IMG/VR virus record: IMGVR_UViG_3300029787_000119
Span: 1 to 40,181 of that record
Length of the DNA stretch: 40,181 bases
Source of the DNA: a virus
Strand: one strand, 5' to 3'
This document shows, piece after piece, positions 1 through 14,448 of the stretch. Under the pieces are notes generated by a model. It had not been told where the DNA came from. It saw only the letters and a program-made list of their open reading frames with translations, and ran no database searches. The translations under genes were made by a program, and so were the position numbers. Position 1 is the first letter of the stretch; each line of letters starts with the position of its first letter.

Positions 1-1569
1 AGACATTGTGATTGCTTCAGCATTTCTTAGATTGTAATATCTAAAATATTGGTTGCCGATAGCACCATAAGCACTGTTCAATTGAATCTTACGTGCCATC
101 TGTATGTTGTTATATTTACTGATACTCTTCTCTAGTTCTTTAGTTGGTGTCTTCTCATATTCTTGCTTTGCCATAAGCATAAGTTTTTTAGATTGCACAC
201 GTTCATCGTATATCTTCTGCATAATCTCAGGCAAGAAACCATGTATGTCTTTACGATACTGTGCACCATTTGCACACAGTGCATACCTAGGATCTATCTG
301 TTCCTTTTGACCAAGTATTCTAGCAACTGTAGCTGATGGGTGCCTCTTCTCAACGAGTGTTTCTGGGGAAATATTATATTGCATAATAAGATGAGGATAC
401 AGACTGTTGAGGTCAAAACTAACCACCCAATCATAGCGTCCTGGCTTCGGTTCTTTAACATACGCACCTTCATACTTTTCATCTTTGTGTGAACGTTTTG
501 CAGGGGGAACTACTATATTCTTTTCCTTAAGAAAATTGTATATGATAGTATCCCACATTCTTACTTGATAGTATACATCCCTGATATTAACTTTAGCATC
601 ATATGCTAGAGCAACAGCAAGTTCTAGCAACTTCATCTTTTCTTCTAGACGTATGACAAGTTCCACGTCAACGATGTTGTAGTCAATAAATTTCTGCCAG
701 TCATTAGTATAGAATTGTTTGAAGTTTTCAAACTCACTGTGATCAACTTTCTTTTGACCTAGTTCTACAAATGCAATATGATCTAGTCTATATGATTCCT
801 GATTAGTATATGTAAATTTCTTGTAGAGATCCATGTAGTCAACCACATTAATCCCAAAAATATTATAGAGAATTTGTTGACGACCTTTTATCTCTAGGTC
901 TTCCCTATACACAATACCCCATGGGGATATCTGTTTCATTTCTTTCTCACCAAACAATCTTTCTAGACGTCCACATATGTACGGGATATCATATAGTTCT
1001 ACGTTCCACCCCGTGAGAATATCTGGGAAATTAGTAATCCAATAGTCAAGAAAACAACGGAGAAGATGTTCTTCACCGTCACAGAGTATGTACTCAACGT
1101 CATCTCTATTATTTGTATACGGTTTGGTACCCCATACTTTGATCTTACGACTGAGATGGTCTTGTACTGTAATGCTAAGAAGAGGTTGCGAGCATTCCTG
1201 CACGTTAGGAAAGCCATTCTCACATGCCACCTCGATATCAAGAGATGTAGTTTTAAGATTTTTAAATTCGTAATCAATTTCTTTCGGAAACTCTTCCGAG
1301 ATGAATTGATAGAGATATCTGTCATAACCATGTACCTCGAAGTTTTGTACTTCTTTGTATTGTTCGATGAATCCTTTTGCTTCTTTTACGGAACCAAACT
1401 TGATAGGTTTAGCATACCTACCATCAAGAGTTTTTTGTTTAGTTTGTTTATCAGTGACGACAAAAAGAGTTGGAGAAAATTTAAACTTACGTTGAATACG
1501 TTGTCCATCCTCGTACCCAAGGTAAAGTAAATTATCCCCAACCAGTTGTACGTTGGTATAGAAACTCAT
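1..1569 (-). CDS. gp43: DNA polymerase gp43, family B, C-terminus cut by window edge
   Basis: This is the replicative DNA polymerase of T4-like phages, with 3'-5' exonuclease proofreading. I translated 523 residues from the ATG at 1569 to the window edge without a stop. The exonuclease motifs are seen as SLDIEV, TGWNVELYDIPYI and YNIVDVELV. The palm motif A is DLNSLYPHLIMQYN, and motif B is KIQLNSAYGAIGNQ followed by FRYYN. The catalytic DTDS motif and the thumb lie beyond base 1, so the gene is partial rather than broken. Its ATG overlaps the stop of the upstream Sm-like gene (TGA at 1566-1568), which suggests translational coupling. In T4 this gene directly follows regA; here hsp20 and a block of Sm-like genes stand between them. 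Confidence 0.97.
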   Translation of the reverse strand, partial: MSFYTNVQLVGDNLLYLGYEDGQRIQRKFKFSPTLFVVTDKQTKQKTLDGRYAKPIKFGSVKEAKGFIEQYKEVQNFEVHGYDRYLYQFISEEFPKEIDYEFKNLKTTSLDIEVACENGFPNVQECSQPLLSITVQDHLSRKIKVWGTKPYTNNRDDVEYILCDGEEHLLRCFLDYWITNFPDILTGWNVELYDIPYICGRLERLFGEKEMKQISPWGIVYREDLEIKGRQQILYNIFGINVVDYMDLYKKFTYTNQESYRLDHIAFVELGQKKVDHSEFENFKQFYTNDWQKFIDYNIVDVELVIRLEEKMKLLELAVALAYDAKVNIRDVYYQVRMWDTIIYNFLKEKNIVVPPAKRSHKDEKYEGAYVKEPKPGRYDWVVSFDLNSLYPHLIMQYNISPETLVEKRHPSATVARILGQKEQIDPRYALCANGAQYRKDIHGFLPEIMQKIYDERVQSKKLMLMAKQEYEKTPTKELEKSISKYNNIQMARKIQLNSAYGAIGNQYFRYYNLRNAEAITMS

Positions 1570-1805
1570 TTAGTTACCGTCTTATACTTTGCCTTCATCG
1601 CTGATGATGCATTTACTATTGTAGCAAGTGTCTCAGAATAAATCAACACGTCCACATCATCAGTGTAATTTGGCCATGGTTCTAGTGTACCATCATCCTT
1701 AATAAGATAAGGATCTTGCAAATGACAACTTGGTTCTTCGTCTAATTGTTCTACCTTAGATATGAGGTGTACCCCACTCTTAAGGATTACTATCATTGTT
1801 TGCAT
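1566..1805 (-). CDS. Sm-like family protein, short member (79 aa)
   Basis: A 79-residue protein with the pattern of three other proteins in this window: an N-terminal hydrophobic strand followed by KSG (VILKSGVHLISKVEQ), a CHLQDPY segment, a WPNYTDD segment and a final SETLATIVNASSAM strand. I read this as an Sm-like (LSm/Hfq-type) fold. From memory, a solved structure of an Sm-like protein of putative cyanophage origin has this layout. It could bind RNA or be a protein-protein scaffold; function is not shown. It overlaps the upstream gene by 13 bases and gp43 by 4 bases. A promoter-like sequence lies about 120 bases upstream, inside the previous gene. Confidence 0.7.
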   Translation of the reverse strand: MQTMIVILKSGVHLISKVEQLDEEPSCHLQDPYLIKDDGTLEPWPNYTDDVDVLIYSETLATIVNASSAMKAKYKTVTK

Positions 1806-2251
1806 AATTTTTCTAATTTGTATAAGTCCTCTTCATTCCAAATATTATTATATTTTTTCCTGTACAAGTATACAGGTTCAATAGTTTTTAATTCTGGTAC
1901 GAATTTTTTAGTAATTAGATTACCAATATACATCTTAGGTTTGTATTTGTCAACTGTAATGTTAAAGTAACTAGGACCGTTGAACATAAGATGTTTAAAT
2001 TTAAAAGTTCCCCTACCTATTTCTATAGGAAATGGTTGAGGAACTAGATCCATATTATATAATGGAGTTTTGATTGGTTGATCAAATGTTATGATGCCAA
2101 ACTTTCCATTTACACGTGCAGGATAGTCTACTAGACATTTTGTTATTGTAACAGGTCCTTCAATTTCTATCTGTTTACTACCTTGAAATTTGTGGTCTGT
2201 TGTATAAGTATGAATTACAGTATCATTATCATATAGGTTAAGTCTCCTCAT
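1793..2251 (-). CDS. Hypothetical phage protein (152 aa) in the gp43 block
   Basis: A 152-residue protein I do not recognise. It looks beta-rich with many short charged loops, has no signal peptide or membrane segment, and ends in a charged helix rich in Lys and Glu. It lacks the strand-KSG start and the W-P-x-x-x-D segment of the Sm-like proteins on both sides, so I do not place it in that family. It overlaps its upstream neighbour by 14 bases and its downstream neighbour by 13 bases, so it belongs to the same transcript ending in gp43. A sigma-70-like promoter motif (1925-1953) lies within its coding sequence. Confidence 0.7.
   Translation of the reverse strand: MRRLNLYDNDTVIHTYTTDHKFQGSKQIEIEGPVTITKCLVDYPARVNGKFGIITFDQPIKTPLYNMDLVPQPFPIEIGRGTFKFKHLMFNGPSYFNITVDKYKPKMYIGNLITKKFVPELKTIEPVYLYRKKYNNIWNEEDLYKLEKLCKQ
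1925..1953 (-). promoter_or_regulatory. Possible internal sigma-70 promoter ahead of gp43
   Basis: On the minus strand TTGACA (1948-1953) is followed after exactly 17 bases by TATATT (1925-1930), a perfect -35 and a five-of-six -10 box. It lies inside the 152-residue gene and would start RNA near 1918, feeding the short Sm-like gene and gp43. Because it is within coding sequence of AT-rich DNA it could be chance; no start site is known. Confidence 0.35.
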
Positions 2252-2660
2252 CTTCCAGTGCCTTTTCTGCTTGTCTGAAAACTTCTTCCATATCTAAATC
2301 ATTATCTGTAACTCCAGCGATCATATCTTCGTGACGTTTAAAGTTCTCCTCATAGTTTTCTTCTCGTATTGCTTGTACATATTGTTCAGAAATACTATCT
2401 AATGGATCATATGCTGTAATAACATGTCCTGCAGGAAGAAAGAAATCTTTATCTTTACTTAGAGGTGCCCATGGAAACCATGATATTTGATATCCCTTTT
2501 CATTATTAAATACAATCCCTCCATCATTAGATACAATGTCTAATCTGAAAGGTTTATGCAAATGATATCCCATGGGTTCCTTAGTCTCAGGATTCACGAT
2601 CTCTTTTGCTTCTGTTATTACTTCTTCACCAGATTTTAATAGTAAAAGTTTTACACTCAT
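2238..2660 (-). CDS. Sm-like family protein (140 aa)
   Basis: A 140-residue member of the Sm-like group. The N-terminus is a strand followed by the turn LLLKSGEEVITEAKEI, then NPETKEPMGYHLHKPF, then ISWFPWAPLSKDKDF, and then a last strand HVITAYDPLDSISEQY. This core fills roughly residues 1-100; the remaining 40 residues are acidic and probably unstructured. The order of segments matches the proteins at 2657-3052 and 16504-16968. Predicted role by fold is RNA or protein binding in the cytoplasm; this is inference. It starts in an ATGA overlap with the upstream paralogue, so the two are co-translated, and they are probably the result of tandem duplication. Confidence 0.72.
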   Translation of the reverse strand: MSVKLLLLKSGEEVITEAKEIVNPETKEPMGYHLHKPFRLDIVSNDGGIVFNNEKGYQISWFPWAPLSKDKDFFLPAGHVITAYDPLDSISEQYVQAIREENYEENFKRHEDMIAGVTDNDLDMEEVFRQAEKALEDEET

Positions 2661-3052
2661 TCTACACTGCCACCCATCTTCTGTACATTCTTGATGTATG
2701 TATCACGAAGACTTGGAACTGGTTCTAAAATAGTCAACACCATTGTGTGATTAATTGGTATCTGAACTTCTGGTGTTAGTGGGCAGTATGGTGAGTAATG
2801 TACTTTGACTTCTGGGTCAGTTACGATACCTGTACCATCTAGTTTAGGTTGGTCATACTCAACTTTATAAGGAAAATTTAATATGAATGCTTGTCTTTCT
2901 CCAGTTTCTTTATGAGTTGCTTCTTGAACATCAGCAATGACACTATCTCCATTGCTGAGAATTACTACCTTTACTCTTTCTGCTTTTATTAATGACTCAG
3001 CAGCAGCAGGAGGGGGAGTTACGTTTATAGGTTCTTTCTTACCTTTTGCCAT
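2657..3052 (-). CDS. Sm-like family protein (131 aa), first gene of the gp43 block
   Basis: First gene behind the consensus promoter at 3075-3103. After about 27 residues rich in Lys, Pro and Ala, the Sm-like core starts: KVVILSNGDSVIADVQEA, HKETGERQAFILNFPY, KVHYSPYCPLTPE, then HTMVLTILEPVPSLRDTY. The two halves mirror Sm1- and Sm2-like strands, but I cannot test the fold. No Shine-Dalgarno sequence is visible; the bases before the ATG are a run of T and A, and the predicted leader is only about 16 bases. It runs by an ATGA overlap into the 140-residue paralogue. The early-type promoter suggests expression soon after infection. Confidence 0.72.
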   Translation of the reverse strand: MAKGKKEPINVTPPPAAAESLIKAERVKVVILSNGDSVIADVQEATHKETGERQAFILNFPYKVEYDQPKLDGTGIVTDPEVKVHYSPYCPLTPEVQIPINHTMVLTILEPVPSLRDTYIKNVQKMGGSVE

Positions 3053-3074
3053 GTTAAAAAATACTTTTGTTTAC

Positions 3075-3103
3075 ATTATAAAGGAGGTATCAACATTTGT
3101 CAA
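3075..3103 (-). promoter_or_regulatory. Consensus sigma-70 promoter for the Sm-like/gp43 block
   Basis: On the minus strand a perfect TTGACA (3098-3103), a 17-base spacer and a perfect TATAAT (3075-3080) stand 23 bases before the ATG at 3052. The expected RNA start is near 3068. This is the form expected of an early phage promoter read by unmodified host RNA polymerase. Imperfect inverted arms (GGGGGTAT and ATACCTCC on the minus strand, about 3082-3109) flank the -35 box and much of the spacer and could be an operator. Confidence 0.85.
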
Positions 3104-3117
3104 TACCCCCTATGTAG

Positions 3118-3543
3118 TTAGATGTAATCTACTCTTTTGTGATGATCAGGAATTACTTTTCCTAGTAATATACTGAGGAGTCCATCATTAAACTCGACGG
3201 ATCTAACCTCCGTATCGTCGGAGAGCGTCCATGCTCGTTGGAAGGAACGTTGTGCCAGTCCTTGATGGACATACGTTCCATCATCCTCTGATTTTTCTTT
3301 GCTTGCTTCGACATATATCTTTCCATACTCCGTATAGACTTTGACGTCATCTTTTTTGAAGCCAGCGATTGCGATTTCCAGTCTTGATTCTTCATTACTT
3401 AAGTGGATTAGGTTGTAAGGTGGGTAGTTAGTCTGGGTTGTATTCCAGAATGAATCAAAATAACTATCCATTCCTATGCTGTTCTTTGTTATCTTATCAA
3501 ACAGTGTTGGTAAGTCGGCAGCAGTATACCTTTGAATTTCCAT
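3118..3543 (-). CDS. hsp20: Small heat shock protein Hsp20
   Basis: An alpha-crystallin-type chaperone of 141 residues that holds unfolding proteins in an ATP-independent way. The core shows EIAIAGFKKDDVKVY near the middle and the typical GLLSILLGKVIP closing strand, with a short C-terminal tail. I place the start at 3543 because AGGAG (3551-3555) sits 7 bases upstream; an in-frame ATG at 3615 would add 24 residues but has no ribosome site and lies directly on a terminator's T-run. Hsp20 genes are a regular feature of cyanophages and may help virion assembly or protect host proteins. It is a single gene between a terminator and the next block's promoter. Confidence 0.93.
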   Translation of the reverse strand: MEIQRYTAADLPTLFDKITKNSIGMDSYFDSFWNTTQTNYPPYNLIHLSNEESRLEIAIAGFKKDDVKVYTEYGKIYVEASKEKSEDDGTYVHQGLAQRSFQRAWTLSDDTEVRSVEFNDGLLSILLGKVIPDHHKRVDYI

Positions 3544-3575
3544 AGTAGTTCTCCTATTATAGCGAGTGTTAATTT

Positions 3576-3592
3576 TGTCCCCGAAGGCGACA
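3576..3592 (-). other. TTCG-loop hairpin in the hsp20 leader
   Basis: On the minus strand TGTC, a bulged G, CC, the loop TTCG, then GG and GACA can fold into a small stable hairpin about 20 bases before the AGGAG site of hsp20. It could be a structural element of the leader, for example part of temperature-dependent folding, but the ribosome site itself is not within the stem. Confidence 0.4.
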
Positions 3593-3615
3593 CTACTAAT
3601 TATAACAGCAGACAT

Positions 3616-3643
3616 AAAAAAGGAGGTTCGGTTATTCCTCCTT
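3616..3643 (-). terminator. Rho-independent terminator after regA
   Basis: On the minus strand AAGGAGG (3637-3643) pairs with CCTCCTT (3620-3626) across a 10-base loop and is followed by further T residues (3616-3619). The stem contains the last codons and stop of regA (3632). It should end the gp45-gp44-gp62-regA transcript before hsp20. Confidence 0.8.
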
Positions 3644-4054
3644 CTTCTTTCCTATGTTGTATTTACTTTCTAAAGTCCATTCGTGCTTTTCTTTATAGGC
3701 AAGAACTTTGATCTGACTTAAAGGTGCTACGTCAGCAATACTTTCCTTACTGTGGATTGATACTAAACCCCAATCACCTAGCAACTGTACTATACGATTC
3801 CTACGTTGTACATCGTTAAGACTTAAGTTCGCTTTCTTCCCATCCAGTGCGAACAACTCTTTAAAGTGAACTATGTAATATCTACCTTGTTTGTGTAGTA
3901 TATGACATGATTGATATAACTTCTTTTCTTTTCTGGATGCTACTCCAATTCTCGTCAGTGTTTCTCTTACCTTGAGAAAGTCATCAGGTTCTTTCAAACC
4001 TACCTCTATCATACTATCAGAAGTCCATTTTACTTCTTCTGTGATCGCAGTCAT
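3632..4054 (-). CDS. regA: RegA translational repressor
   Basis: RegA binds the start regions of early phage mRNAs and blocks their translation. The match to T4 RegA is strong: EPDDFLKVRETLTRIG near the N-terminus, LYQSCHILHKQGRYYIVHFKE in the middle, DWGLVSI, and KHEWTLESKYNIG near the end. The protein has 140 residues, about 14 more at the N-terminus than T4 RegA, whose start aligns with the internal Met at residue 15. I keep the outer ATG because it forms an ATGA overlap with gp62 and has GGGAGG just upstream. The order gp44, gp62, regA is as in T4. The gene's end lies within the terminator stem. Confidence 0.96.
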   Translation of the reverse strand: MTAITEEVKWTSDSMIEVGLKEPDDFLKVRETLTRIGVASRKEKKLYQSCHILHKQGRYYIVHFKELFALDGKKANLSLNDVQRRNRIVQLLGDWGLVSIHSKESIADVAPLSQIKVLAYKEKHEWTLESKYNIGKKKEE

Positions 4055-4431
4055 TGTTTTCCTCCCATCTCATGTTTGTTACGAATGTGTTCAATTTGGG
4101 TTTTGGTGAGAAGATTTACTGCGATCCTCGCTTTCTCGTTACTATATCCATAGTGTTTTTTAACTAGATCCAGATTTTCAATCTGTTCTTTCTTCAACCA
4201 AGGTGAGAAACGCTTTCGTTTCCGTAAAGTATATAGCAAGAAAGAGTACTGTAAATCCTTGTCAAGGTTACTATACATATTCATCTCATTTGCAAACAGG
4301 ATAGTGTCAAGATGTCCAGACAAACATCTGTTTACAATATATGGTGGATAAGATTTGATTGCTTCGGGATCATCTTCTATCAAGTTATCTTTGGTAAAAT
4401 TGATAGAGTTCAACCAGTCCTTTAGTTCCAT
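4051..4431 (-). CDS. gp62: Clamp loader small subunit gp62
   Basis: gp62 joins four gp44 ATPase subunits to load the sliding clamp gp45 onto primed DNA. The 126-residue protein is shorter than T4 gp62 (187) but has the cyanophage form, with PPYIVNRCLSGHLDTILFA in the first half and RKRKRFSPWLKKEQ in the second. Position gives further support: it lies between gp44 and regA, as in T4, although four other genes have been inserted after gp44. It starts in a TAATG overlap with the preceding small gene and ends in an ATGA overlap with regA. Confidence 0.88.
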   Translation of the reverse strand: MELKDWLNSINFTKDNLIEDDPEAIKSYPPYIVNRCLSGHLDTILFANEMNMYSNLDKDLQYSFLLYTLRKRKRFSPWLKKEQIENLDLVKKHYGYSNEKARIAVNLLTKTQIEHIRNKHEMGGKQ

Positions 4432-4640
4432 TAAAATGTCCTGATAGGTCCTACAACTCCTGTTCTGTTATTGTTTATACGATATATCTGTGTACTTCCA
4501 TTCTTCATTTGCACATGGACTTCTTCACCCATGATAATTGCTTGAGTAGCGTTGGGAGCAAATGTTCCCATAGGACCTCTACGTGTATTGTAGAGTTGAC
4601 AGTACCCACTACGTAGTACCCTGACTCCTAAACTTTCCAT
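4431..4640 (-). CDS. Hypothetical small protein (69 aa)
   Basis: A 69-residue protein I do not recognise. It contains several Asn and Gly turns and a segment VHVQMKNGSTQIYRINN that looks like a beta hairpin, so a small beta-barrel is possible. It overlaps the end of the Dam-type methylase gene by 32 bases in another frame, and its stop is joined to the gp62 start as TAATG. The coupling to gp62 and the lack of any competing reading frame are the main support for it being real. Confidence 0.65.
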   Translation of the reverse strand: MESLGVRVLRSGYCQLYNTRRGPMGTFAPNATQAIIMGEEVHVQMKNGSTQIYRINNNRTGVVGPIRTF

Positions 4641-5472
4641 AATTAAGACAAATTAATTCACGACGTTTTGTTTGATCTGACATGTATGTACCTGTAGATC
4701 TCATTGTATAAGTATGAGCAAAGTCATACTGATGCCACTCTTCAAATCTTTGAACGATATCTGGGTGGTTATTATATGATACCATAACATTGCCCATTGT
4801 GTCATCCATGATATCAGCAAATCTTCCGTGGTCAAAACCTTTGTGCATTGCACCTTTATGACCATAGAGATTATCTTTTACTTGATATGGTGGATCGACA
4901 TATATGAATGTATTATCTGAACAAGTTAGCATCCCTATTCTTCCTAAACAATCCTCTACTAGTTCAGCATAATCTAGATTAGTAATCTTCCAGTTCTTTA
5001 TCAACTTAGAATAGTCTTTGAGATTGTTGATACCACGTATGGAGAAGTTGGAATCACTTGCCTGTGGTGAGAAGGACGAACTTTCAGTGAGACCAGAGAA
5101 AGAACACTTATTGATAATATAAAAAGCAACCGCTTTATCTTTGTATCCAATATCATCCTCATTTACTTTCTCCTTAGCATCTAAAAATAATTGTTTAGCA
5201 GAACCTTGATCTGGATGTCTCTGTTTTAATTGTATGAGTTGATCATAGAGGTAGTCACCATCGTCTCTCAATACTAACCAGAAATTATATAATGGTTTGT
5301 ATAAGTCATTGACCCAGATAGGTAAATCAGGAAAACGTTTTGTCATCTCGATTGCCATACTACCACCACCTAAGAATGGTTCACGATACTCTGTGATAGT
5401 CTCAGGTAACCATTGCCACAACTTAGGAACTGCTCTTGACTTTCCGCCAGGATATCTTAGTGGTGTTTTCAT
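4609..5472 (-). CDS. dam: Dam-type adenine-N6 DNA methyltransferase (D12 class)
   Basis: A 287-residue DNA methyltransferase that transfers a methyl group from S-adenosylmethionine to adenine. The start LRYPGGKSRAVPKLW and EPFLGGGSMA (residues 31-40) form the cofactor site, and DPPY at residues 193-196 is the catalytic motif. The target is likely GATC by family, but this is not shown. No restriction enzyme gene is near, so it is an orphan methylase that may protect phage DNA or mark it for regulation. It sits within the clamp-loader operon, starting in an ATGA overlap with the 61-residue gene upstream. Confidence 0.93.
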   Translation of the reverse strand: MKTPLRYPGGKSRAVPKLWQWLPETITEYREPFLGGGSMAIEMTKRFPDLPIWVNDLYKPLYNFWLVLRDDGDYLYDQLIQLKQRHPDQGSAKQLFLDAKEKVNEDDIGYKDKAVAFYIINKCSFSGLTESSSFSPQASDSNFSIRGINNLKDYSKLIKNWKITNLDYAELVEDCLGRIGMLTCSDNTFIYVDPPYQVKDNLYGHKGAMHKGFDHGRFADIMDDTMGNVMVSYNNHPDIVQRFEEWHQYDFAHTYTMRSTGTYMSDQTKRRELICLNYGKFRSQGTT

Positions 5473-5654
5473 GGTTCTGCTGATTCTAATTCCATTATAG
5501 CATCAACTGGCACTTCATTGCCACCTATGTTATACCAATGTTCCATCTCTCCTGACTTATAACTTTTACGTTCACCAAGATATTCTAAGTCATGGAATGT
5601 ATGTTCTCTAAGCATTGCTTGAAGACGATAGTGTATTAGTTCAGACTTTTTCAT
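5469..5654 (-). CDS. Hypothetical small protein (61 aa)
   Basis: A 61-residue soluble protein with an N-terminal charged helix (KKSELIHYRLQAMLREH) and a middle with Tyr, Gly and Trp. I do not recognise it. It has ATGA overlaps with both neighbours (5651-5654 and 5469-5472), so it belongs to the gp44-to-regA transcript. Confidence 0.7.
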   Translation of the reverse strand: MKKSELIHYRLQAMLREHTFHDLEYLGERKSYKSGEMEHWYNIGGNEVPVDAIMELESAEP

Positions 5655-5923
5655 TGCACTATTGTCATCCCATAATCTTCTGGAGTTGGAATAGGCATGT
5701 AGTATCCATCCTGTCTCTGTCTCTTTCTTACTGGTTCTTGCATAATGTCAATAGTTTCTTCAAACCATCTATTCATTGATCTTGCCATAGCACGATAAGA
5801 GGTTCCAACATATAGTTGTCCACTTACAACAGCAACGGTTGCTGCACCCCAGAAGATATAATAAAATCTAGATTTCATTTGTGCTCTGATCTTTTCACGT
5901 TTGCTCATAAATTTGTTAGTCAT
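5651..5923 (-). CDS. Small single-pass membrane protein (90 aa)
   Basis: A 90-residue protein with a basic N-terminus (residues 1-20, rich in Lys and Arg), one hydrophobic segment at about residues 21-40 (YYIFWGAATVAVVSGQLYVG), and a polar C-terminal half with an Arg-rich stretch. The positive residues before the segment predict the N-terminus inside the cell. Function is unknown. It is coupled by 4-base overlaps to gp44 upstream and to the 61-residue gene downstream, an odd place for a membrane protein inside a replisome operon. Confidence 0.72.
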   Translation of the reverse strand: MTNKFMSKREKIRAQMKSRFYYIFWGAATVAVVSGQLYVGTSYRAMARSMNRWFEETIDIMQEPVRKRQRQDGYYMPIPTPEDYGMTIVQ

Positions 5924-6861
5924 TTGAAGTTACACTCCACCATAATTTCGGTTAGTGCTGCTAAGAGATTGATTTCTTGATCAGCAACAAATGCTGATTG
6001 GTATTGATACTTAGCAATAATCAATACCGCTTGAGGTATACTTGTTGGTGTAAGAGATTCATAAAGATTATCATACACTGTCCTTAGTATAGCATTAGGA
6101 TCATTATCTAAATTAGCAACGATCCACTTACGAGCAGCACCGAAGTCTTTTGCCTTCAATGCACCCACAAGTTTTTCTAATCGAACCTGACTTATCTGTG
6201 CCAGAATGCCAGTGTCGATGACTCCTGACGCTGCATACCTTTGCAGTTCGTTGAGGGTACGTCTGAAGTCTGGGAAGAACTTCTGGACGACCTCAGCGAC
6301 CACAGCATCAGTAAATTGTATATTCTCTGCAGTAAGTATTCCACGACACCTCTCAAAAAATTGTCCTGCAATTTGTTGTTTCTGTTTTCCACGAGTGTTG
6401 CAATCAATAACTGTTGTACGAGAGTGAAGTGGTTCTATAATTTTGTTTTTAAAATTACAGGTAAATATAAATCTACAATTGTTTTGAAACTCTTCTATAG
6501 ATGCACGCAATAGTAACTGCACATCATGTGTGGTATTGTCTGCTTCATCTATAATGATGACCTTATGTTTAGATGATGAGGTCAATGATACAGTTGATGC
6601 AAATTGTTTTGCACTATTTCTTACAGTGTCTAAGAATCTACCTTCATCAGATCCATTGATAACTATACTATCAACTTGCAATTCTTCGCATAATGCTTTT
6701 GCAACTGTAGTCTTACCAATTCCTGCAGTTCCACATAAAAGAAGATTAGGAATCTCTCCTGCCTTCACAAATGATTCAAAGGTAGACTTCAACTCAGGTG
6801 GAAGAATACAATGTTCAATGCGTTTGGGGCGATACTTTTCTACCCAAAGAAACTCACTCAT
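5920..6861 (-). CDS. gp44: Clamp loader large subunit gp44 (AAA+ ATPase)
   Basis: gp44 uses ATP to open and place the gp45 clamp. The 313-residue protein has EKYRPKRIEHCILP at residues 8-21, Walker A GTAGIGKT at 44-51, the Walker B box IIIDEAD ending at residue 108, and SRT at 147-149 in the place of the SRC arginine-finger motif. FPDFRRTLNELQRYA matches the T4 lid region. The length is close to T4 gp44 (319). It follows a conserved phage protein by 3 bases, and runs by ATGA into the small membrane protein gene. Confidence 0.97.
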   Translation of the reverse strand: MSEFLWVEKYRPKRIEHCILPPELKSTFESFVKAGEIPNLLLCGTAGIGKTTVAKALCEELQVDSIVINGSDEGRFLDTVRNSAKQFASTVSLTSSSKHKVIIIDEADNTTHDVQLLLRASIEEFQNNCRFIFTCNFKNKIIEPLHSRTTVIDCNTRGKQKQQIAGQFFERCRGILTAENIQFTDAVVAEVVQKFFPDFRRTLNELQRYAASGVIDTGILAQISQVRLEKLVGALKAKDFGAARKWIVANLDNDPNAILRTVYDNLYESLTPTSIPQAVLIIAKYQYQSAFVADQEINLLAALTEIMVECNFK

Positions 6862-6864
6862 AAT

Positions 6865-7365
6865 TTAGGATAACCAATTCGGTTTGCGGGATGGGTCACG
6901 AAGATAATTAGATGCAACCCAAGGTTTGCTGCTAATGTAATTCTTGTAAGCAGTAAAAGTGTCAATGCTTGTGTCATATTTAAACTCATCGGGCATAGCA
7001 CGTGTAAAGGATGTGGGTGGTGGGCAGGATGGAAACATAATATCAGCACACTCAATAGTATACTGACAACTATGAACCTTGTTGTACCTGTGTGTATATT
7101 CTGCACACAATGCAAGACCATGTTCTATTAACCAATAGAAATTATTCTGTGCCCAGATAGTGCAAGGATGATTACGAAATGCACCCTTGTCTGTTTTGTA
7201 TGGAGTGCCATCTATCTTAGGTAATGTGCCAAAACCATGACCCCACTTCTCTGATGCAACAATAGATAACATTTGACATGTTTCTAGTGGCATCTTGACA
7301 ATATGCTTGTCAGGTAAAACCTGTGCAGACTTATAGGGTGATGGGTCAGTAACAAAGATATTCAT
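6865..7365 (-). CDS. Conserved phage protein of unknown function (166 aa)
   Basis: A 166-residue protein of a type often seen in phages, starting MNIFVTDPSPYKSAQVLPDK. Clear conserved-looking blocks are HIVKMPLETCQML, NHPCTIWAQNN, EYTHRYNKVH and the C-terminal KPWVASNYLRDPSRKP. The many His, Asp and Cys residues in these blocks suggest an enzyme or metal site, but I know no proven function. It lies between gp45 and gp44, genes that are adjacent in T4, with gaps of 14 and 3 bases, so it is probably made with the clamp and its loader. Confidence 0.8.
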   Translation of the reverse strand: MNIFVTDPSPYKSAQVLPDKHIVKMPLETCQMLSIVASEKWGHGFGTLPKIDGTPYKTDKGAFRNHPCTIWAQNNFYWLIEHGLALCAEYTHRYNKVHSCQYTIECADIMFPSCPPPTSFTRAMPDEFKYDTSIDTFTAYKNYISSKPWVASNYLRDPSRKPNWLS

Positions 7366-7379
7366 AGCACAATGGTATA

Positions 7380-8048
7380 TTACCCATTATAGCGTGAGTC
7401 TGGTTCTAATGCAATAAGATATTCTAGATCTCTTTTTGGATCTCTGAACAAGGATGCATTCTGTTTGCTAATTGTCACTTCATAATCTGCAGGAAGTAGT
7501 TTTAGATTTTCTACTTTGAAATTGAAAGTAAACTTAGCATCAGTAGATCCAACGGTTACAGCATAACTGTTTGATGTTTTATTCTTCTTATCACTAACAA
7601 GAAGTTTGATCTCACTACCGTTACCTACAACTGCTAGATCAGCAATTTGATAGATAGATGCTGCCTTGATTATGTTTGATAAATCAGACCAAGCAACACT
7701 GAAACATACATCCCTACTTGGAATGTCTACCTTGTTCTCTGGTGGTTTTATAATGGTAGATGGATCAGCGAAGAAATATCTTGATTGACACTTCTTGTCT
7801 TTGATAACGACATAGTTGTCATCGTCAAATATAAAATCTGGATCTTCAAATAATGTAAGACCAGATAAGAACTCACTCAGATCATAGATGGCAAAGTCTT
7901 TTGGAAACTTTTCATTTACTACTGCACGTGATAAAATGTTTTTTTGTATTGATAAGGTAGATAACTCTGTACCTTCTTTAAAACAAATTGATTGATTAAT
8001 ATTGGAAAAGTTCTTCAGAATATCAAGTGTTCCTTTAGAAAGTTTCAT
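7380..8048 (-). CDS. gp45: Sliding clamp gp45
   Basis: gp45 is the trimeric ring that holds the polymerase on DNA and also activates late transcription with gp33 and gp55. The 222-residue protein starts MKLSKGTLDILKNFSNINQS, close to T4 MKLSKDTTALLKNFATINSG. It carries AIYDLSEFLSGLTLFED, FFADPSTI, and near the end the YLIALEPDS strand matching YVVALEADS of T4. T4 gp45 has 228 residues. The start is joined in a TAATG overlap to the gene upstream, so clamp and clamp loader form one transcription unit here as in T4. Confidence 0.96.
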   Translation of the reverse strand: MKLSKGTLDILKNFSNINQSICFKEGTELSTLSIQKNILSRAVVNEKFPKDFAIYDLSEFLSGLTLFEDPDFIFDDDNYVVIKDKKCQSRYFFADPSTIIKPPENKVDIPSRDVCFSVAWSDLSNIIKAASIYQIADLAVVGNGSEIKLLVSDKKNKTSNSYAVTVGSTDAKFTFNFKVENLKLLPADYEVTISKQNASLFRDPKRDLEYLIALEPDSRYNG

Positions 8049-8488
8049 TAGTTCTCCTTATTGTGAAAGTGATATAATAATACACAATAGTGTATTGCTT
8101 TTAAAATGTCAAGTTTAGGGGTTCCCTTCTTGTCAAAACGACTTAGGTACTTCATAGCATTTCCTCTACAGAATGCTTGAGCATCACCTAGTGCTTCGAT
8201 GAAATCTAGAGTTTGGAAGTTGTCCTTACTCGAATAGTGTTTCTTATAAGTTTTAACAATGTATTTTTCCGCTTCAGCGAGAGTTTCTTTTTCATTGTAC
8301 TTACAAGTTTCTAGATCATCAATAGTGATATTCATATCCATCATCTCTGAATACGATGGGTAGTCATAAGGGGACTTGAATTCAAGTCCCGATAGATCTG
8401 GAATATCATCTCCTAGTGAATCAAATCCATATTGTTCCAATAGTCCTTCCTCCTTCAAAACGTCATAAAGTAACCAGTATGCCACCAT
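8048..8488 (-). CDS. DUF3310-like phage protein (146 aa)
   Basis: A 146-residue protein. Its C-terminal half reads FIEALGDAQAFCRGNAMKYL followed by SRFDKKG and ILKAIHYCVLLYHF, the pattern of DUF3310 proteins found in many phages (FI-x-C-x-GNAxKYxxRxxxKG-x-D-L-x-KAxxY). The first 70 residues are acidic and rich in Asp, Glu and Tyr. DUF3310 has been linked to nucleotide metabolism by association, but the activity is not known to me. It is joined by TAATG overlaps to cobS upstream and gp45 downstream. Confidence 0.75.
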   Translation of the reverse strand: MVAYWLLYDVLKEEGLLEQYGFDSLGDDIPDLSGLEFKSPYDYPSYSEMMDMNITIDDLETCKYNEKETLAEAEKYIVKTYKKHYSSKDNFQTLDFIEALGDAQAFCRGNAMKYLSRFDKKGTPKLDILKAIHYCVLLYHFHNKEN

Positions 8489-9552
8489 TATACCTCAAAG
8501 TCTACGTCTGCGTCAACCTTATCGTAAAGTTCTTGAAACGCTTGCTTTGTCTCGTCATCAAAACGTGATATACATGTAGTGATTGCCTTAGCACGATTAC
8601 CAAAGATTTTGAATGCTTGAATGATGTGTACAAGTCTACGAGTAGAGATGACCTCATCAATACCACCGTCAAAGAATGTCTTACGGATGATGTCTGCCCA
8701 GTCACAAAGTCTCTTGTTGAACTCTTTGTCATCAGACAATAGGTCAAGCATCTTCTGCTCTGTCTGTGGATGAGGATAGTTCTGCTCAAAGGTAACAGGG
8801 AATCTCTCAAGGAATGCTTCGTTAAGAACATTGGTGCCTACGAATCTACCATCCTCAGAACCTTTACCTTTTGTGTTAGCAGTAGCGATAACTGTGAACC
8901 CTGCTGCAGGTTTTACATACTTGCCGATTTTCTTAAGAAAGACACCTTTACCTTCAAGGATAGATTGTAAACATAAGATCTTGTTAGATGCCAAGTCAAT
9001 CTCGTCAAGTAATAGAACTGCACCTCTTTCAAGTGCTTCAACTACAGGACCGTTGTGCCATACTGTGCTGCCATCAACAAGTCTGAATCCACCGATGAGA
9101 TCGTCTTCGTCTGTCTCGATAGAGATGTTAACTCTGATCAATTCTCTCTTTGCCTGTGCACACGCTTGCTCTACAGAAAATGTTTTACCATTGCCTGATA
9201 GACCTGTGATAAATGCAGGATAGAAGATACCTGATTGGATAATCTTCTTGACGTCAGCAAAGTTACCGAACTTGACAAAGGTATCAACTACCTCTGGAAT
9301 AAGGTTTTGCTCAACTGAGGGGATTACAGAGGGTGCTGAGACTGCTTTCTCAAGTATCTCTCTACCTTCAGCAATAGTTAGATTCCATGAACCACGCTTA
9401 GTTTGGAACTGTTTTAGTTTGCGAGCAACAGTTGCATAACCGCAGTTACGACTTGTTGCAAATTTTCTGATATGAGATGCATCAATCTCATTACCGTGTT
9501 CTTGACGTAGTTCGTCTACGAAGTTTACGGATAGTTTTCTTTCAAAAGGCAT
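8488..9552 (-). CDS. cobS: CobS-like MoxR-type AAA+ ATPase
   Basis: A 354-residue ATPase of the CobS/MoxR group. After an N-terminal part of about 100 residues come Walker A GLSGNGKT (117-124), Walker B VLLLDEID (179-186) and the sensor segment IATANTKGKG; STRRLVHI is a likely sensor 2 region. In bacteria CobS and CobT insert cobalt into the corrin ring of vitamin B12 together with CobN. Cyanophage copies are usually annotated on that basis. No other B12 gene is seen here, and the gene immediately upstream encodes a vWA protein, the usual partner of MoxR ATPases. It therefore may act as a general remodelling chaperone instead. No clear ribosome site precedes the ATG. Confidence 0.9.
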   Translation of the reverse strand: MPFERKLSVNFVDELRQEHGNEIDASHIRKFATSRNCGYATVARKLKQFQTKRGSWNLTIAEGREILEKAVSAPSVIPSVEQNLIPEVVDTFVKFGNFADVKKIIQSGIFYPAFITGLSGNGKTFSVEQACAQAKRELIRVNISIETDEDDLIGGFRLVDGSTVWHNGPVVEALERGAVLLLDEIDLASNKILCLQSILEGKGVFLKKIGKYVKPAAGFTVIATANTKGKGSEDGRFVGTNVLNEAFLERFPVTFEQNYPHPQTEQKMLDLLSDDKEFNKRLCDWADIIRKTFFDGGIDEVISTRRLVHIIQAFKIFGNRAKAITTCISRFDDETKQAFQELYDKVDADVDFEV

Positions 9553-9581
9553 AATGTAAAATTGAAATTGATTTGTATAGT

Positions 9582-9587
9582 ATTATA
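9582..9587 (-). promoter_or_regulatory. Possible -10 box before cobS
   Basis: A perfect TATAAT on the minus strand lies 30 bases before the cobS ATG in the 90-base gap. No good -35 box is found 16-18 bases upstream, so this is weak. The same gap holds a GTGCCA/TGGCAC hairpin (9622-9643) that starts at the stop codon of the vWA gene and has no T-run. Confidence 0.3.
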
Positions 9588-9642
9588 ATGACACATAGCA
9601 TAGGACTTATCTACTATGAATGTGCCACTAATTTTATTGGCA

Positions 9643-11841
9643 CTAAGCGATACGCTCGATGAAGGAAGATAAGATCTTCTTGTTCATCTTCTTACCACCA
9701 AGAGACTTGCTAAATGCTTTCTTGATTTGTGCTTTAGTAGCATCTTCTTGCACTTCAAACTCAGCATTGTTGTCAAGTGCATTGATATGTAATGCGTACT
9801 GTACTGTCCAGAAAGATGATGTGCAGATGAATGACTTGGTTCTTCTCCACACTTGATCTGCTTTAGATATTTCTTCTTGAGATACAGTACTGCCTAAGCA
9901 AGATGACTTGAATCTACCCCAGTCATTACCTGTGATAAGTCTGATGTTCATAAACTCACACTCAGGAAATCTGTCACGTAGTTGAAGAACAAAAGTTTCT
10001 GTCATTCCTGATCCCCAATAGTCGTCATTAAATTTGTACATCTTACCAGTTTTACGATCACGTAAGAATACATGGGAGTCAATTCTAGAAGCATAGATCT
10101 TCCACTCATCCTGCTCATAGTATCTCTTTGCTTTCTTACCGAAAGAAACACTAGGTGCACCTTCACCATCAGTTAAAGTTAGAACGTGTACTTTTTGTAC
10201 ACCTGTCTTTTTCTTGAACTGAGGAATGATGTAGTTCAATGCAATCATCGCTTCATTAAGTGGAGTGCCACCTAATTGTAGTTTGTGAGGTACATTACCA
10301 TAACCATAGTTTCCACTGTATGCTCTCGCTAGACGGAAAAGATTTAATGCTTGCTTTTCGTGTAGTCTGTTGTTAGAACTGCTAGTTAGAACATTGATTA
10401 AGTTAAAGTTTCTTAAGATAATTTTATTTTCTAATGAAGCATCTTCTTCTGTATCATAGTGATCTTTATGCCAAGCATCTGTGAAAAGATATACATCATA
10501 CTGGATACCAACTTTACGACAGAATGATACCATAGTAAGAGTCTGTTTGATAGTTGCTAATATCTGATGATGCATAGAACCTGACCAGTCAATGTTGAAT
10601 ATTAGACCGTGGTTTTTGCTGTTAGGAATAGTAGTAACTTTTCTAAAAAGATCTTCATTGTATTTGTAAGTGTGTAACTTACCAGTATCAAGAACTCCAG
10701 TTCTTGCAGTAGTGGCACGTGCATAACCATCTGCTGCTTTCTTCATCTCAAACTCTTTGACAAGATAGTTAACTTCTTTAGTATTACCTACTTTAAAGTT
10801 TCTGTAATCAGAATCAGACTCATCTAAGTCTGCAGTGATTCTTCTTGCCAATTCCATATCATACTCATCATTGAAATCTGTTTTACTTCTCAATGCATAC
10901 TGGTTAGCGTACCAATCAGTAAGATAATCATCTGTCTCTTTGTTATCAACAACGTGACTTGATCTTAGAGTTGGTGTTAACTCCACGTAAAAGTTTTCTC
11001 TGTTAGTTTTTTCAACTAATCCTTTGATTGCTTCATCAAATGAATCTGCAGTTTGTACTTGAGGTTCAGCGATTGCATCCTCAGGACCGTTGCAACGTCC
11101 TGCGGTTGTACCCTGTGGTGATTGAGCAGGAGTTTCTTGAAGAAGATCTTCTACCTCATCACTAGGAGATGATTGCTGTTGCTGTTGCTGCTGCCCATCA
11201 GTTTGTTCTGCATCACCTTTCTCATTAGAAGGCATTGACTCACCTTCAGAATTACCTGACTCTGAATCTGGTTGTGATTCTTCTAACTGCTCTTTTTGCT
11301 TATCAAGTTGATCTTTACAGTATCCGTGCAACTCTTTTGCTAAAGCAATAGTATCTTCAAAAGTTTCTAGAAGATCTGCCTTTGCTTTGAAGTATAGTTC
11401 TTCTGTAGTAAAAGGAATGTCAACGTGATGACCTACTTTGAAATGTAAGTTTAGTTTGTCTGCAAGATTGAACTGACTTAGATCTTTGTCTGCAATATCA
11501 AAGAAGTCTTCGCCTTGTAAAACTTCATAACCATTGAAGAATGTTTTAGGTAAACCTTGATATCTACGCTTGATAAGTTTCTCAACACGAATGTCTTCAA
11601 CGACATTTACAAATGACATATTGACTTCTTCTAACCAAGAATTATCATCAGGTGTATAAAGTGCGTGAGATACTTCGTGTGCTATGAGTAAGTCAGTAAC
11701 GTAGTTGCTTTCGTGTGCCCATGTTGGAAGTGTTAGAATTCTTCTGGTTACATCAAACTGTGCAGTTTGTACTGGACGATGCTCAATGATTAGATCTTCT
11801 TGTGCGAGTAGTTTTGCAAGTGACTCTTTGACGATGTTCAT
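9643..11841 (-). CDS. CobT-like protein: HExxH metallopeptidase-like N-terminus plus vWA domain
   Basis: A 732-residue two-domain protein. The N-terminal domain has HEVSH at 55-59 and a downstream NVVEDIRVEKL segment (79-89) whose Glu may be the third zinc ligand, the layout of zinc metallopeptidases. A low-complexity linker rich in Gln, Glu and Ser (about 185-250) follows. The C-terminal half holds a von Willebrand A domain with MIDAS residues DWSGS, then LGGTPLNEAM and LTDGEG supplying the Thr and Asp. Its gene precedes cobS, so the pair looks like a MoxR-vWA or CobS-CobT system. Proteolysis is inferred only. A terminator lies upstream, and a GTGCCA hairpin begins at its stop codon. Confidence 0.85.
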   Translation of the reverse strand: MNIVKESLAKLLAQEDLIIEHRPVQTAQFDVTRRILTLPTWAHESNYVTDLLIAHEVSHALYTPDDNSWLEEVNMSFVNVVEDIRVEKLIKRRYQGLPKTFFNGYEVLQGEDFFDIADKDLSQFNLADKLNLHFKVGHHVDIPFTTEELYFKAKADLLETFEDTIALAKELHGYCKDQLDKQKEQLEESQPDSESGNSEGESMPSNEKGDAEQTDGQQQQQQQSSPSDEVEDLLQETPAQSPQGTTAGRCNGPEDAIAEPQVQTADSFDEAIKGLVEKTNRENFYVELTPTLRSSHVVDNKETDDYLTDWYANQYALRSKTDFNDEYDMELARRITADLDESDSDYRNFKVGNTKEVNYLVKEFEMKKAADGYARATTARTGVLDTGKLHTYKYNEDLFRKVTTIPNSKNHGLIFNIDWSGSMHHQILATIKQTLTMVSFCRKVGIQYDVYLFTDAWHKDHYDTEEDASLENKIILRNFNLINVLTSSSNNRLHEKQALNLFRLARAYSGNYGYGNVPHKLQLGGTPLNEAMIALNYIIPQFKKKTGVQKVHVLTLTDGEGAPSVSFGKKAKRYYEQDEWKIYASRIDSHVFLRDRKTGKMYKFNDDYWGSGMTETFVLQLRDRFPECEFMNIRLITGNDWGRFKSSCLGSTVSQEEISKADQVWRRTKSFICTSSFWTVQYALHINALDNNAEFEVQEDATKAQIKKAFSKSLGGKKMNKKILSSFIERIA

Positions 11842-11859
11842 AATTCTCTGTGTCTTATA

Positions 11860-12012
11860 CTATACATTGTAATAACAAAACCGCCCCTTGGGACGGTTGA
11901 GTAGACACTTTGTCAACTGGTTGCGACGCTTCCTTGCTTGACGCAATGCTTGTGGTTTAAGATGACGCTTCTTTTCTTTTTTAGAGTGGTGTTGCCAGTT
12001 AGGTATTTTCAT
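11860..12012 (-). CDS. Small very basic protein (50 aa)
   Basis: A 50-codon frame from the ATG at 12012 to a TAG at 11860. The product begins MKIPNWQHHSKKEKKRHL and goes on with alternating Arg, Lys and Gln, so it is likely an RNA- or DNA-binding peptide or a ribosomal-protein mimic. The ATG lies inside the end of the 65-residue gene, a 14-base overlap typical of this genome. It fills an otherwise empty 157-base gap. The last 13 codons coincide with a terminator hairpin, which lowers my confidence, although coding and terminator can share sequence, as regA shows here. Confidence 0.5.
   Translation of the reverse strand: MKIPNWQHHSKKEKKRHLKPQALRQARKRRNQLTKCLLNRPKGRFCYYNV
11871..11898 (-). terminator. 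Terminator before the vWA gene
   Basis: On the minus strand AACCGTCCC pairs with GGGGCGGTT (11879-11898, one G-T pair), followed by TTGTTATT. It would end the gp46-small membrane protein transcript. The stem overlaps the 3' part of the 50-codon gene. The T-run is interrupted, so some read-through into the vWA gene is likely. Confidence 0.7.
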
Positions 12013-12196
12013 ATTGCTCCAAGTCAACGTGTACTAATGTTTCTCCTTCGTATTCCTTTCTCTGTGGTTGTCCTATCTTTTCTAGGATCTCAGCAGGAAT
12101 CTTTTTCTTTGTAATATCATAAGGTATAGGTGCATTTGCTACACATACTCTTATACATTCCCATTGTTCGTCAGTAAAGAAGTTGTTATGGTACAT
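11999..12196 (-). CDS. Hypothetical small protein (65 aa)
   Basis: A 65-residue soluble acidic protein with an N-terminal helix FTDEQWECIRVCVANAPIPY and a charged C-terminal part. I do not recognise it. It shares one base with the upstream membrane protein gene (TAATG type) and carries the start of the 50-codon gene in its last codons. No membrane segment is seen, unlike its three upstream neighbours. Confidence 0.68.
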   Translation of the reverse strand: MYHNNFFTDEQWECIRVCVANAPIPYDITKKKIPAEILEKIGQPQRKEYEGETLVHVDLEQYENT

Positions 12197-12420
12197 TATC
12201 TTCTTACTACAACAGTGTCAGGTTCATCATCATCTTCCTCTGGTTTAAATACAAGTAACTCATCACCTGTTTGTACGTCTTTCATTTCTGGATGTACATT
12301 TCTTACAGGTTTATTGACTGCCTCAATCGTGGTTCTCATCATCATGAACATGAACATTGCACTACTTCCTGCTACTATGGCAAAGAGTATGAAATAGATC
12401 CCCACGGTCAGGTCATTCAT
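12196..12420 (-). CDS. Small membrane protein (74 aa)
   Basis: A 74-residue protein with one strongly hydrophobic segment (residues 5-28, rich in Ile, Phe, Ala and Met) and then a soluble tail ending in an acidic cluster EEDDDEPD and VVVRR. The short, nearly uncharged N-terminus gives little topology signal. Function is unknown; such single-pass proteins are frequent in cyanophages. It overlaps the 26-codon gene upstream by ATGA and the 65-residue gene downstream by one base. Confidence 0.72.
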   Translation of the reverse strand: MNDLTVGIYFILFAIVAGSSAMFMFMMMRTTIEAVNKPVRNVHPEMKDVQTGDELLVFKPEEDDDEPDTVVVRR

Positions 12421-12497
12421 TTTCTATTCTCGTATTGGTAGATTAAAAGCACTCCAAGTGTGACCCAGAATACTACTTCAAGTCCATAATTAGTCAT
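12417..12497 (-). CDS. Tiny membrane peptide (26 aa)
   Basis: A 26-codon frame starting at the ATG at 12497, within an ATGACTAA overlap with the upstream gene, and ending in an ATGA overlap with the 74-residue gene. The product is nearly all one hydrophobic helix (LEVVFWVTLGVLLIYQY) followed by ENRK. The exact overlaps at both ends, together with the gap it fills, make it likely to be translated. Peptides of this kind can act as subunits of membrane complexes, but none can be named. Confidence 0.6.
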   Translation of the reverse strand: MTNYGLEVVFWVTLGVLLIYQYENRK

Positions 12498-12699
12498 CGT
12501 GTTCGTCCCACTGATCTGTTAGATCTTTGTTGTTAAAGAATGCTCTATACACACCGAATCCAGTCAGTCCAACAGTGAATATTAATAATGCTATCCCAAA
12601 CGTAACGTTAGGGTCTGCGTTGTAATGTGGAATGAGTGCATTACATTTACTCCACGTCCCAGGTAGGGTATAGACTGGTGGGCAACTTGCTAGAAACAT
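12490..12699 (-). CDS. Small membrane protein (69 aa), first gene behind a consensus promoter
   Basis: A 69-residue protein with a Cys- and Pro-containing N-terminal part, a hydrophobic segment at about residues 33-54 (VTFGIALLIFTVGLTGFGVY) and an acidic C-terminus DQWDEHDD. It is the first of three membrane-protein genes in a row, followed by the 65- and 50-residue ORFs, and is preceded by a near-perfect sigma-70 promoter at 12720-12747. This suggests early expression. Function unknown; changes to the host membrane or to electron transport are possible but not shown. Confidence 0.72.
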   Translation of the reverse strand: MFLASCPPVYTLPGTWSKCNALIPHYNADPNVTFGIALLIFTVGLTGFGVYRAFFNNKDLTDQWDEHDD

Positions 12700-12719
12700 A
12701 AATTTTAGATACTATCTTC

Positions 12720-12747
12720 ATTATACAGGAGACTATGCGTTTGTCAA
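12720..12747 (-). promoter_or_regulatory. Consensus sigma-70 promoter for the small membrane protein genes
   Basis: On the minus strand TTGACA (12742-12747), a 16-base spacer and TATAAT (12720-12725), both boxes perfect. The -35 box lies in the last codons of gp46 (stop at 12733). The expected RNA start near 12713 leaves a short leader to the ATG at 12699. Confidence 0.8.
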
Positions 12748-14448
12748 ATGTAAATTTGAGAAATCGCCATCTTTCTTAAACTCAACCGTCTTATCAAAGC
12801 GGTCAATTAGGACTTCACCTTTGTGTGAAATCACAAACAAATTAGTTTTGTCTAACTTATTCTTTAATATCTTCATCAGTTCATCAGTGGCAGATTGATC
12901 TAGTGATGAGTCAAACACTTCATCAAGAATGAGTAGGTTAGTTGCCACACTATTTTTAAGTTGTGCAACCTCTCTCCATGTAAACAGTAGTGCTAGGTCA
13001 ATCTTTTGCTTTTCACCCTCAGAGAATGAGGCATATGTAAAGTCATCACGAAATCTTGATAGGATCTTCTCAGTAAAGTTATCATCTAGTGTGAAGTTTA
13101 CAAAGAAATCCATGCTGTGCAGATATTTATTAATTCTAGCATTGATTAGTGGTATAAACTTAGCAATTATCTTTGTTTTGATACCACTGTCCTTCAATAA
13201 CTCACCTACAATACCAAGATAGTTTGCTTGTGTATTGACTTTGGCACAGTCATCTTTCTTATCTTCTAAGTTCTTTTGGATAGTAACTAATGACTGTCTC
13301 TCATACTCTAAGTTTGTAGTATCACTACCAACCTCAGTTAATATATCAGTATTCTCTTTAAGAAGTTTAGTTTCCTCATGTGTCAATGCCTGTATTTCAT
13401 ACCTATAACCATTGATCTCTTCTGATTTCTTCCTGAGATCTTTGACTGTGGTCGCAAGTTTTTTAATCTCATCAGTAATTTGTTTAGACCCTGCTGCTAA
13501 TTCAGTTCCTTTATCTGCAAGATACTTTATCTTTGTTTCTTTAAACTGTTCACTAATCTCTTGTGTACATGTGGGGCATGTGTGATTGTTCTCAAAGAAA
13601 TTCATTTCTCTACGAGAGTTATCAAATTTAGATTTGATCTTGGTACGCATCTCTTTGAACTTCTCATGTTTATCTACTGCCTTGTCTAGTTCTAATATCT
13701 GTGGTTCTAACGTATCACATTTCTTATCTAGTTCTTTGATTCTAGATTTGATTTGTATACAACGTTCTTCATTTAGATCAAACTTCTTCTGCTTCCTTTC
13801 CATCTGTGTAGTATCAACCTTTTCTAGGTTCTCGATATTACGGATTTGCATTTCAACTTTCTGTTGTGCAATATCCATTTCATACTCACATGATCTCTGC
13901 TCGTCCTTGATCTCTTTGACTCTCTCCTTTAACAGAGTATTCATCTGAGAGAAGATCTGGATGTCTAGTATATCTTCTATAACTTCTCTTCTATTAGGTC
14001 CTGTCAACTGCATGAAAGGCACAAAGGTACTGCTACCCAGTATGACTACCTGTGTAAATGATTTAAAATTAAGTTTAAGTACAGATTGTTCTAAGTATTT
14101 CTGGTCATCAGCAACAGATGCATTTGCATCATAGAGTTCTCCGTTGCGATAGATCTCAAACTTAGAGGGTTTCATACCTCTGATAACTTTATATTCAATA
14201 CTACCGATATTAAATTCTATCTCTACTACACATTCCTTTTCATTAACTGTATTGATTAATTGTGTCTTACTAATCTTTCTAAATGGTTTTGCAAACAGAC
14301 CAAAACAAAGAGCATCAAGAAGTGTGCTCTTGCCTGCTCCGTTATTACCTACAATTAATGTAGACGCAGTATCATTCAGATTGATTTCAGTAAACTGCTG
14401 ACCAGTGGACAACAGATTCTTCCATCTAATCTTTTCAAAAACAATCAT
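12733..14448 (-). CDS. gp46: Recombination endonuclease subunit gp46 (SbcC/Rad50-like)
   Basis: gp46 and gp47 form the Mre11-Rad50-type complex that resects DNA ends for recombination-dependent replication. The 571-residue protein has Walker A GNNGAGKST (34-42), long coiled coils around a zinc hook CPTC (291-294), the ABC signature FSEGEKQKIDLALL and Walker B LLILDEVFDSSLD near the end. T4 gp46 has 560 residues. Its ATG stands directly after the TAA of the DUF3110-like gene. The promoter of the next transcript lies in its last codons. Confidence 0.96.
   Translation of the reverse strand: MIVFEKIRWKNLLSTGQQFTEINLNDTASTLIVGNNGAGKSTLLDALCFGLFAKPFRKISKTQLINTVNEKECVVEIEFNIGSIEYKVIRGMKPSKFEIYRNGELYDANASVADDQKYLEQSVLKLNFKSFTQVVILGSSTFVPFMQLTGPNRREVIEDILDIQIFSQMNTLLKERVKEIKDEQRSCEYEMDIAQQKVEMQIRNIENLEKVDTTQMERKQKKFDLNEERCIQIKSRIKELDKKCDTLEPQILELDKAVDKHEKFKEMRTKIKSKFDNSRREMNFFENNHTCPTCTQEISEQFKETKIKYLADKGTELAAGSKQITDEIKKLATTVKDLRKKSEEINGYRYEIQALTHEETKLLKENTDILTEVGSDTTNLEYERQSLVTIQKNLEDKKDDCAKVNTQANYLGIVGELLKDSGIKTKIIAKFIPLINARINKYLHSMDFFVNFTLDDNFTEKILSRFRDDFTYASFSEGEKQKIDLALLFTWREVAQLKNSVATNLLILDEVFDSSLDQSATDELMKILKNKLDKTNLFVISHKGEVLIDRFDKTVEFKKDGDFSNLHLTNA

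Follow-up and report, generated by a model that had tools for sequence, protein, structure and literature searches.

Why would a phage of marine cyanobacteria encode several small proteins of the Sm type, three of them ahead of its DNA polymerase gene? The question is raised by one 40-kb viral contig of IMG/VR (record IMGVR_UViG_3300029787_000119, positions 1 to 40,181; hereafter the window), in which a first-pass annotation, made from the letters alone, had pointed to four such proteins. The four open reading frames were confirmed, all on the minus strand, and are named here A1 (2657–3052, 131 residues), A2 (2238–2660, 140 residues), B (1566–1805, 79 residues) and C (16504–16968, 154 residues); the ortholog groups A and B lie ahead of the polymerase gene gp43, and group C behind uvsW. 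A single protein of the Sm type, probably derived from a cyanophage, is reportedly already known. As described below, the set consists of phage-specific Sm-like proteins of the 3by7 type, is common to all the T4-like cyanophages surveyed and is not special to the phage of the window.

Kinship and fold of the four proteins

Pfam assigned A1, A2 and B to DUF6561 (PF20198; E-values 1.4e-5, 2.4e-6 and 1.9e-18, respectively) and C to Sm_like (PF16243; 3e-23). A2, B and C exceeded the curated Pfam cut-off, and A1, with a score of 25.4 bits, was 1.6 below the cut-off of 27 and nonetheless matched phrog_431 at 5.4e-28. The PHROGs of the other three proteins were phrog_431 for A2 (1.9e-33), phrog_483 for B (1.8e-25) and phrog_471 for C (1.6e-40), and the T4-GC numbers of the set, taken from P-HM2, are 139, 176 and 417, C being T4-GC 139. 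These families, together with phrog_527, contain the set and come with no function given; DUF6561, a family listed without a function, was not mentioned in any paper found in the literature searched. Profile-profile comparison of the groups gave similarities far above chance (A–B 1e-15, A–C 3e-11, B–C 6e-9), by which all four window proteins are members of one superfamily.

Comparison of the group profiles with all PDB sequences led in each case to 3by7 (A 3.9e-9, B 2.6e-7, C 4e-6), and beyond this entry and its engineered derivative TIP60 nothing else was matched confidently. The group profiles were needed for this result, as single-sequence searches of the PDB gave weak matches to 3by7. The entry (JCVI_PEP_1096686650277), which we take to be the cyanophage-like Sm structure mentioned in the first-pass annotation (Das et al. 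2009), carries a title that notes structural similarity to Sm/LSm-like RNA-binding proteins. It is about 20% identical to the window proteins, from which it differs in that A1 adds an N-terminal extension and A2 and C add C-terminal tails.

AlphaFold models were obtained for A2 and C as single chains, from alignments of 38 and 35 natural sequences, respectively. The mean predicted local distance difference test score was 79 for A2 and 86 for C, and exceeded 90 over most of the barrel. Both models showed the same order of elements, with strands 1–3 followed by a strand 4 that is split, then by a short turn, strand 5 and a helix, and DSSP gave in both a five-strand barrel with the short turn between strands 4 and 5. 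Foldseek against the PDB placed 3by7 at the top for A2 (E 1.3e-5, target template-modelling (TM) score 0.92, root-mean-square deviation 1.6) and for C (E 1.1e-4, target TM score 0.72–0.78), and the remaining matches listed were nearly all Sm and LSm chains. The models thus support an Sm/LSm-type fold like that of 3by7 for A2 and C, and the profile matches support the assignment of A1 and B as 3by7-type Sm-like proteins. The fold proposed in the first-pass annotation is in agreement with these results: neither differing folds nor loss of the five-strand Sm barrel, named there as grounds for abandoning it, was seen in the two modelled proteins. The order of segments described there as common to the four proteins held in part. 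The alignments of the relatives confirmed, with variations, a G-E turn, a proline in strand 3, W/Y-x-P and a final V-x-T...Y, whereas P-E-T-K/H-x-x-P proved to be an unconserved, variable loop.

The alignments also showed C-terminal tails that differ between groups A, B and C, that of A2 being acidic and helical. In a maximum-likelihood tree, groups B and C were each placed on one side of a branch (bootstrap 98% and 100%, respectively); group A was left unresolved, with A1, a fast-evolving duplicate of this group, on a long branch. A weak match in phage phiM12 was excluded from the tree, the protein extracted being unconvincing. The label "methylamine utilization", carried by C-type proteins in phrog_471 and in many cyanophage records, was rejected because no such Pfam family was matched and the model of C is an Sm barrel.

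The first-pass annotation had also suggested comparison with Hfq and LSm proteins. The likeness to LSm was found as described, but the Hfq profile PF17209 gave no match in the window or in 16 phage records at E-values up to 1, with controls matching. Bacterial Hfq shares the Sm-type barrel and differs in its KH-type loop, in the acidic character of the phage proteins, and in its helix, which is N-terminal in Hfq and C-terminal in the phage models; before strand 1 the models of A2 and C have no helix, their start being strand 1 itself or coil. The eukaryotic Sm/LSm proteins, next-best as structural matches, likewise share the barrel and occur as several paralogs per genome. Unlike the phage models, they have an N-terminal helix and an RG loop and form hetero-heptameric rings, and no sequence kinship between them and the phage proteins was found in these searches.

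Distribution in cyanophages and the operon with gp43

Of the 12 T4-like cyanophage isolates surveyed by whole-record scans, every one had a single C after uvsW and, directly before gp43, one or more copies of A and one or more of B. In marine cyanophages the related proteins number three to five, two or three of them encoded on the DNA polymerase message, so that the multi-copy state claimed in the first-pass annotation, which had proposed such a survey, was borne out. Group A is duplicated in the phages of Prochlorococcus MED4, P-HM1 and P-HM2 each having a second A and hence four copies. An extra copy of the phrog_527 type is found elsewhere in the genomes of Syn9 (133396–133686), P-SSM7 (135067–135360) and S-ShM2 (19657–19935); the phrog_527 profile also matches in Methanocaldococcus jannaschii, one of the control genomes. 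Pelagibacter phage HTVC008M has one family member, KVP40 and phiM12 gave weak matches only, and no member was detected by the scan of the T4 record.

The alignments of groups A and B being too diverse for a scan of the larger collection, single relatives were used as queries. Among 50,697 phage records searched by tblastn, A2 had matches in 311 and C had them in 330; every one of these records is named as a cyanophage, a Synechococcus or Prochlorococcus phage or a marine virus. Loci were retrieved by A, B or C queries without selection for adjacency to gp43, and some of them overlap. Among the resulting 467 sequences, the window included, the order A-B-gp43 was found in 170 and A-A-B-gp43 in 94; the few others were cut short, lay on the uvsW side or had a further member. 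A and B were neighbours throughout, in the invariant order A-B-gp43, and C was apart from both in every genome.

In the window, the gp43 gene (1569–1, minus strand) is represented by its 5′ part, which runs past the window edge and is 82% identical to gp43 of P-HM2; the polymerase side of the window resembles the MED4 phages P-HM2, P-HM1 and MED4-213. A1 is the first gene behind a sigma-70-type promoter, TTGACA-N17-TATAAT (3103–3075, minus strand; 12/12 match), which ends just upstream of the A1 start codon. A1 and A2 overlap by 4 nucleotides, as do B and gp43, and both overlaps were present in 66/66 distinct double-A loci. A 12/12 promoter lies upstream of A in 58 of these 66 loci, mostly ending 20–23 nucleotides before the ATG; in single-A loci a promoter score of 11 or 12 was reached in 44/122, and of random 120-nucleotide stretches of the window sequence 0.5% scored 12. 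The genes for A, B and gp43 are adjacent and overlapping, behind a sigma-70-type promoter. In agreement with the first-pass annotation the Sm-like genes open the gp43 transcript, but their tandem is broken between A2 and B by another gene with no assigned role (1793–2251, minus strand; phrog_23688, no Pfam match). This gene is confined to P-HM1, P-HM2 and some relatives, most relatives being without it, and the gap from A to B fits it (432 nucleotides) in 22 of the 66 double-A loci.

A hairpin (3082–3111, minus strand) is fused with the promoter, the whole element spanning 3075–3113 on the minus strand and being unique within the window. The upper part of its 5′ arm is the −35 box, and its 3′ arm ends at TTTATAAT, adjoining the −10 box. 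The hairpin folds in 34/34 distinct elements, in which 92% of the stem cells are paired, as compared with 40–61% in slid registers. Covariation amounted to 39 double changes; shuffling gave 8.6, and not one of 500 shuffles reached as high a value. The hairpin-promoter occurs in some single-A phages and is missing from many others, and a scan of window positions 1–20000 with Rfam gave no match to an RNA family. The element may combine an hsp20 terminator with the promoter that drives the Sm-gp43 operon. In the P-HM2 record (L142), an endonuclease gene and a DNA adenine methylase gene stand between hsp20 and A1 (133853–135251), an insertion occupying the site where relatives have the hairpin-promoter.

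A lineage switch between gp43 and C

The first-pass annotation had counted C as the fourth copy of the same phage. C does follow uvsW, its start overlapping the end of that gene. Compared gene by gene, the stretch from gp43 to the peptidase gene resembles P-HM2 (56–97%), and that from gp46 to uvsY, C included, resembles S-SZBM1 (60–84%); at the setting used for this comparison C had no match in the P-HM2 stretch. IMG/VR contig 3300020459_000039 matches window positions 2–12020 at 98.2% identity and diverges thereafter. Positions 11650–16864 are matched at 98.3% identity by contig 3300020413_000016, which diverges on the other side, and positions 13344–33331 at 98.5% by contig 3300020420_000411. 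The lineages switch within 100 bases, 11877–11976, which are identical in the two otherwise divergent lineages. Two further contigs continue the left lineage and one the right, and no other contig among those compared supports the join made in the window. Because the lineages switch at this point and no contig shares the join, the window is probably a chimera made in assembly, with a rare recombinant as the alternative, and its C probably comes from a different phage genome. On the left-lineage contig, A1 and A2 are accompanied by a C of its own at a distance of 14 kb, and its B is L187. Since this contig, P-HM1 and P-HM2 each hold four copies, the claim of four copies in one phage survives.

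Possible roles of the Sm-like set

Most well-studied Sm, LSm and Hfq proteins bind RNA, and the handling of phage RNA inside the cell by rings of A, B and C is tentatively ranked as their likeliest job. Each protein would form a small ring, probably a pentamer. The first-pass annotation had expected hexamers or heptamers; by analogy the form to expect is the pentamer, because 3by7 was deposited as five chains and supplies the five-fold component of TIP60, a designed cage. A and B, being always adjacent, may co-assemble, and C may act independently of them. The rings would act within the cell during the early/middle, replication phase, in which they might bind, protect or regulate phage transcripts, using for this a surface distinct from the classical uridine pocket of Sm proteins. 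This timing is suggested by the expression of the Sm-like genes with gp43, since the study of P-HM2 (PMC5082946) describes g43 as belonging to the early/middle genes of T4-like phages. In S-SZBM1 the proteins A (SSZBM1_150), B (SSZBM1_149) and C (SSZBM1_171) are not among the 30 virion proteins detected (PMC9146016), a list from which low-copy proteins could be missing, and a stable role in the virion is therefore not supported.

Several results weigh against RNA handling. In the window proteins the RG motif of loop 5 is missing at the corresponding position of the alignment, this position being set by the strand-turn-strand layout of the models and not by structural superposition. Within the first 115 residues, RG[DN] was found at any position in 4/239 proteins of group A, 0/160 of B, 1/134 of C and 0/3 of D. 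Every group is acidic, with a median net charge of −6 to −10. Both features argue against a classical uridine pocket, not against other RNA contacts. A comparison with Hfq is attractive because MED4, the host of the nearest isolates, and 10/12 Prochlorococcus strains have no Hfq, while other cyanobacteria in the same study have it (PMC2518516). An explanation by which the phage brings its own Hfq to an Hfq-less host was nevertheless rejected as a general one, because Synechococcus phages, whose hosts reportedly do have Hfq (PMC2518516), carry the set too. Mirror-tree analysis showed a coupling of A with B no greater than that expected from shared descent, the partial correlation of A and B given gp43 being 0.51, equal to that of B and gp43 given A. 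That A and B (and A1/A2 in the MED4 phages) form mixed rings, as the first-pass annotation had suggested, and that these control phage and host RNA during replication, would be a rather improbable form of the proposal.

Close behind RNA handling is ranked the possibility, somewhat less probable, that the rings are protein-binding adaptors, by which A and B would attach to the DNA polymerase or replisome, to the host RNA polymerase or to RNase E. Their operon with gp43 and invariant gene order are in agreement with such a role, as are the acidic surface and the missing RG motif, and the Sm-like protein Rof shows by its binding to the factor Rho that such a protein can act on another protein (PMC11018626). 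No partner is known, however, C is distant from gp43, and the gene overlap may reflect dosage alone. It is doubtful, in turn, that the three groups have separate, unrelated jobs with only the fold in common, in which case there would be no Sm system at all. B and C each form a single branch of the tree, the C-terminal tails differ, and C is never found beside A and B; but all three groups co-occur in every one of the 12 isolates, and A and B never part.

Very unlikely is a role as transient factors of virion assembly, in which the phage proteins would stand in for the hexamer of host Hfq serving as plug of the T4 neck. Host Hfq binds gp14, gates the neck and is absent from mature virions (PMC12270204), an Sm-type ring thus being used by a T4-type phage as it multiplies; MED4 has no Hfq (PMC2518516), and C lies near gp55 and head genes. 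The T4 plug is host-encoded, however, and acts at a late assembly stage, in a phage without a match to the present family, whereas A and B stand among replication genes behind a sigma-70-type promoter. Three groups exceed the need of one plug, the T4 plug has six-fold symmetry as against the five-fold of the solved relative, and Hfq contacts the T4 neck by a positive surface, whereas the phage Sm-like proteins are acidic. The S-SZBM1 virion list, from which A, B and C are missing, also speaks against it.

As far as could be checked, the placement of DUF6561 in the Sm fold, the set of paralogs in all T4-like cyanophages surveyed and the hairpin-promoter at the head of their operon are new. Several "hypothetical" genes (DUF6561; phrog_431, 471, 483 and 527; T4-GC 139, 176 and 417) shared by these phages, which are abundant viruses of the ocean, are thereby brought to one solved fold. 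Mixed rings of A and B, if they exist, would amount to an Sm ring system of several subunits, a feature that otherwise characterises eukaryotic Sm/LSm proteins, and would be synthesised along with the DNA polymerase. The reason for which a phage should require a whole family of such rings can now be tested directly, with small proteins of which one relative has been crystallised and engineered into the TIP60 nanocage.

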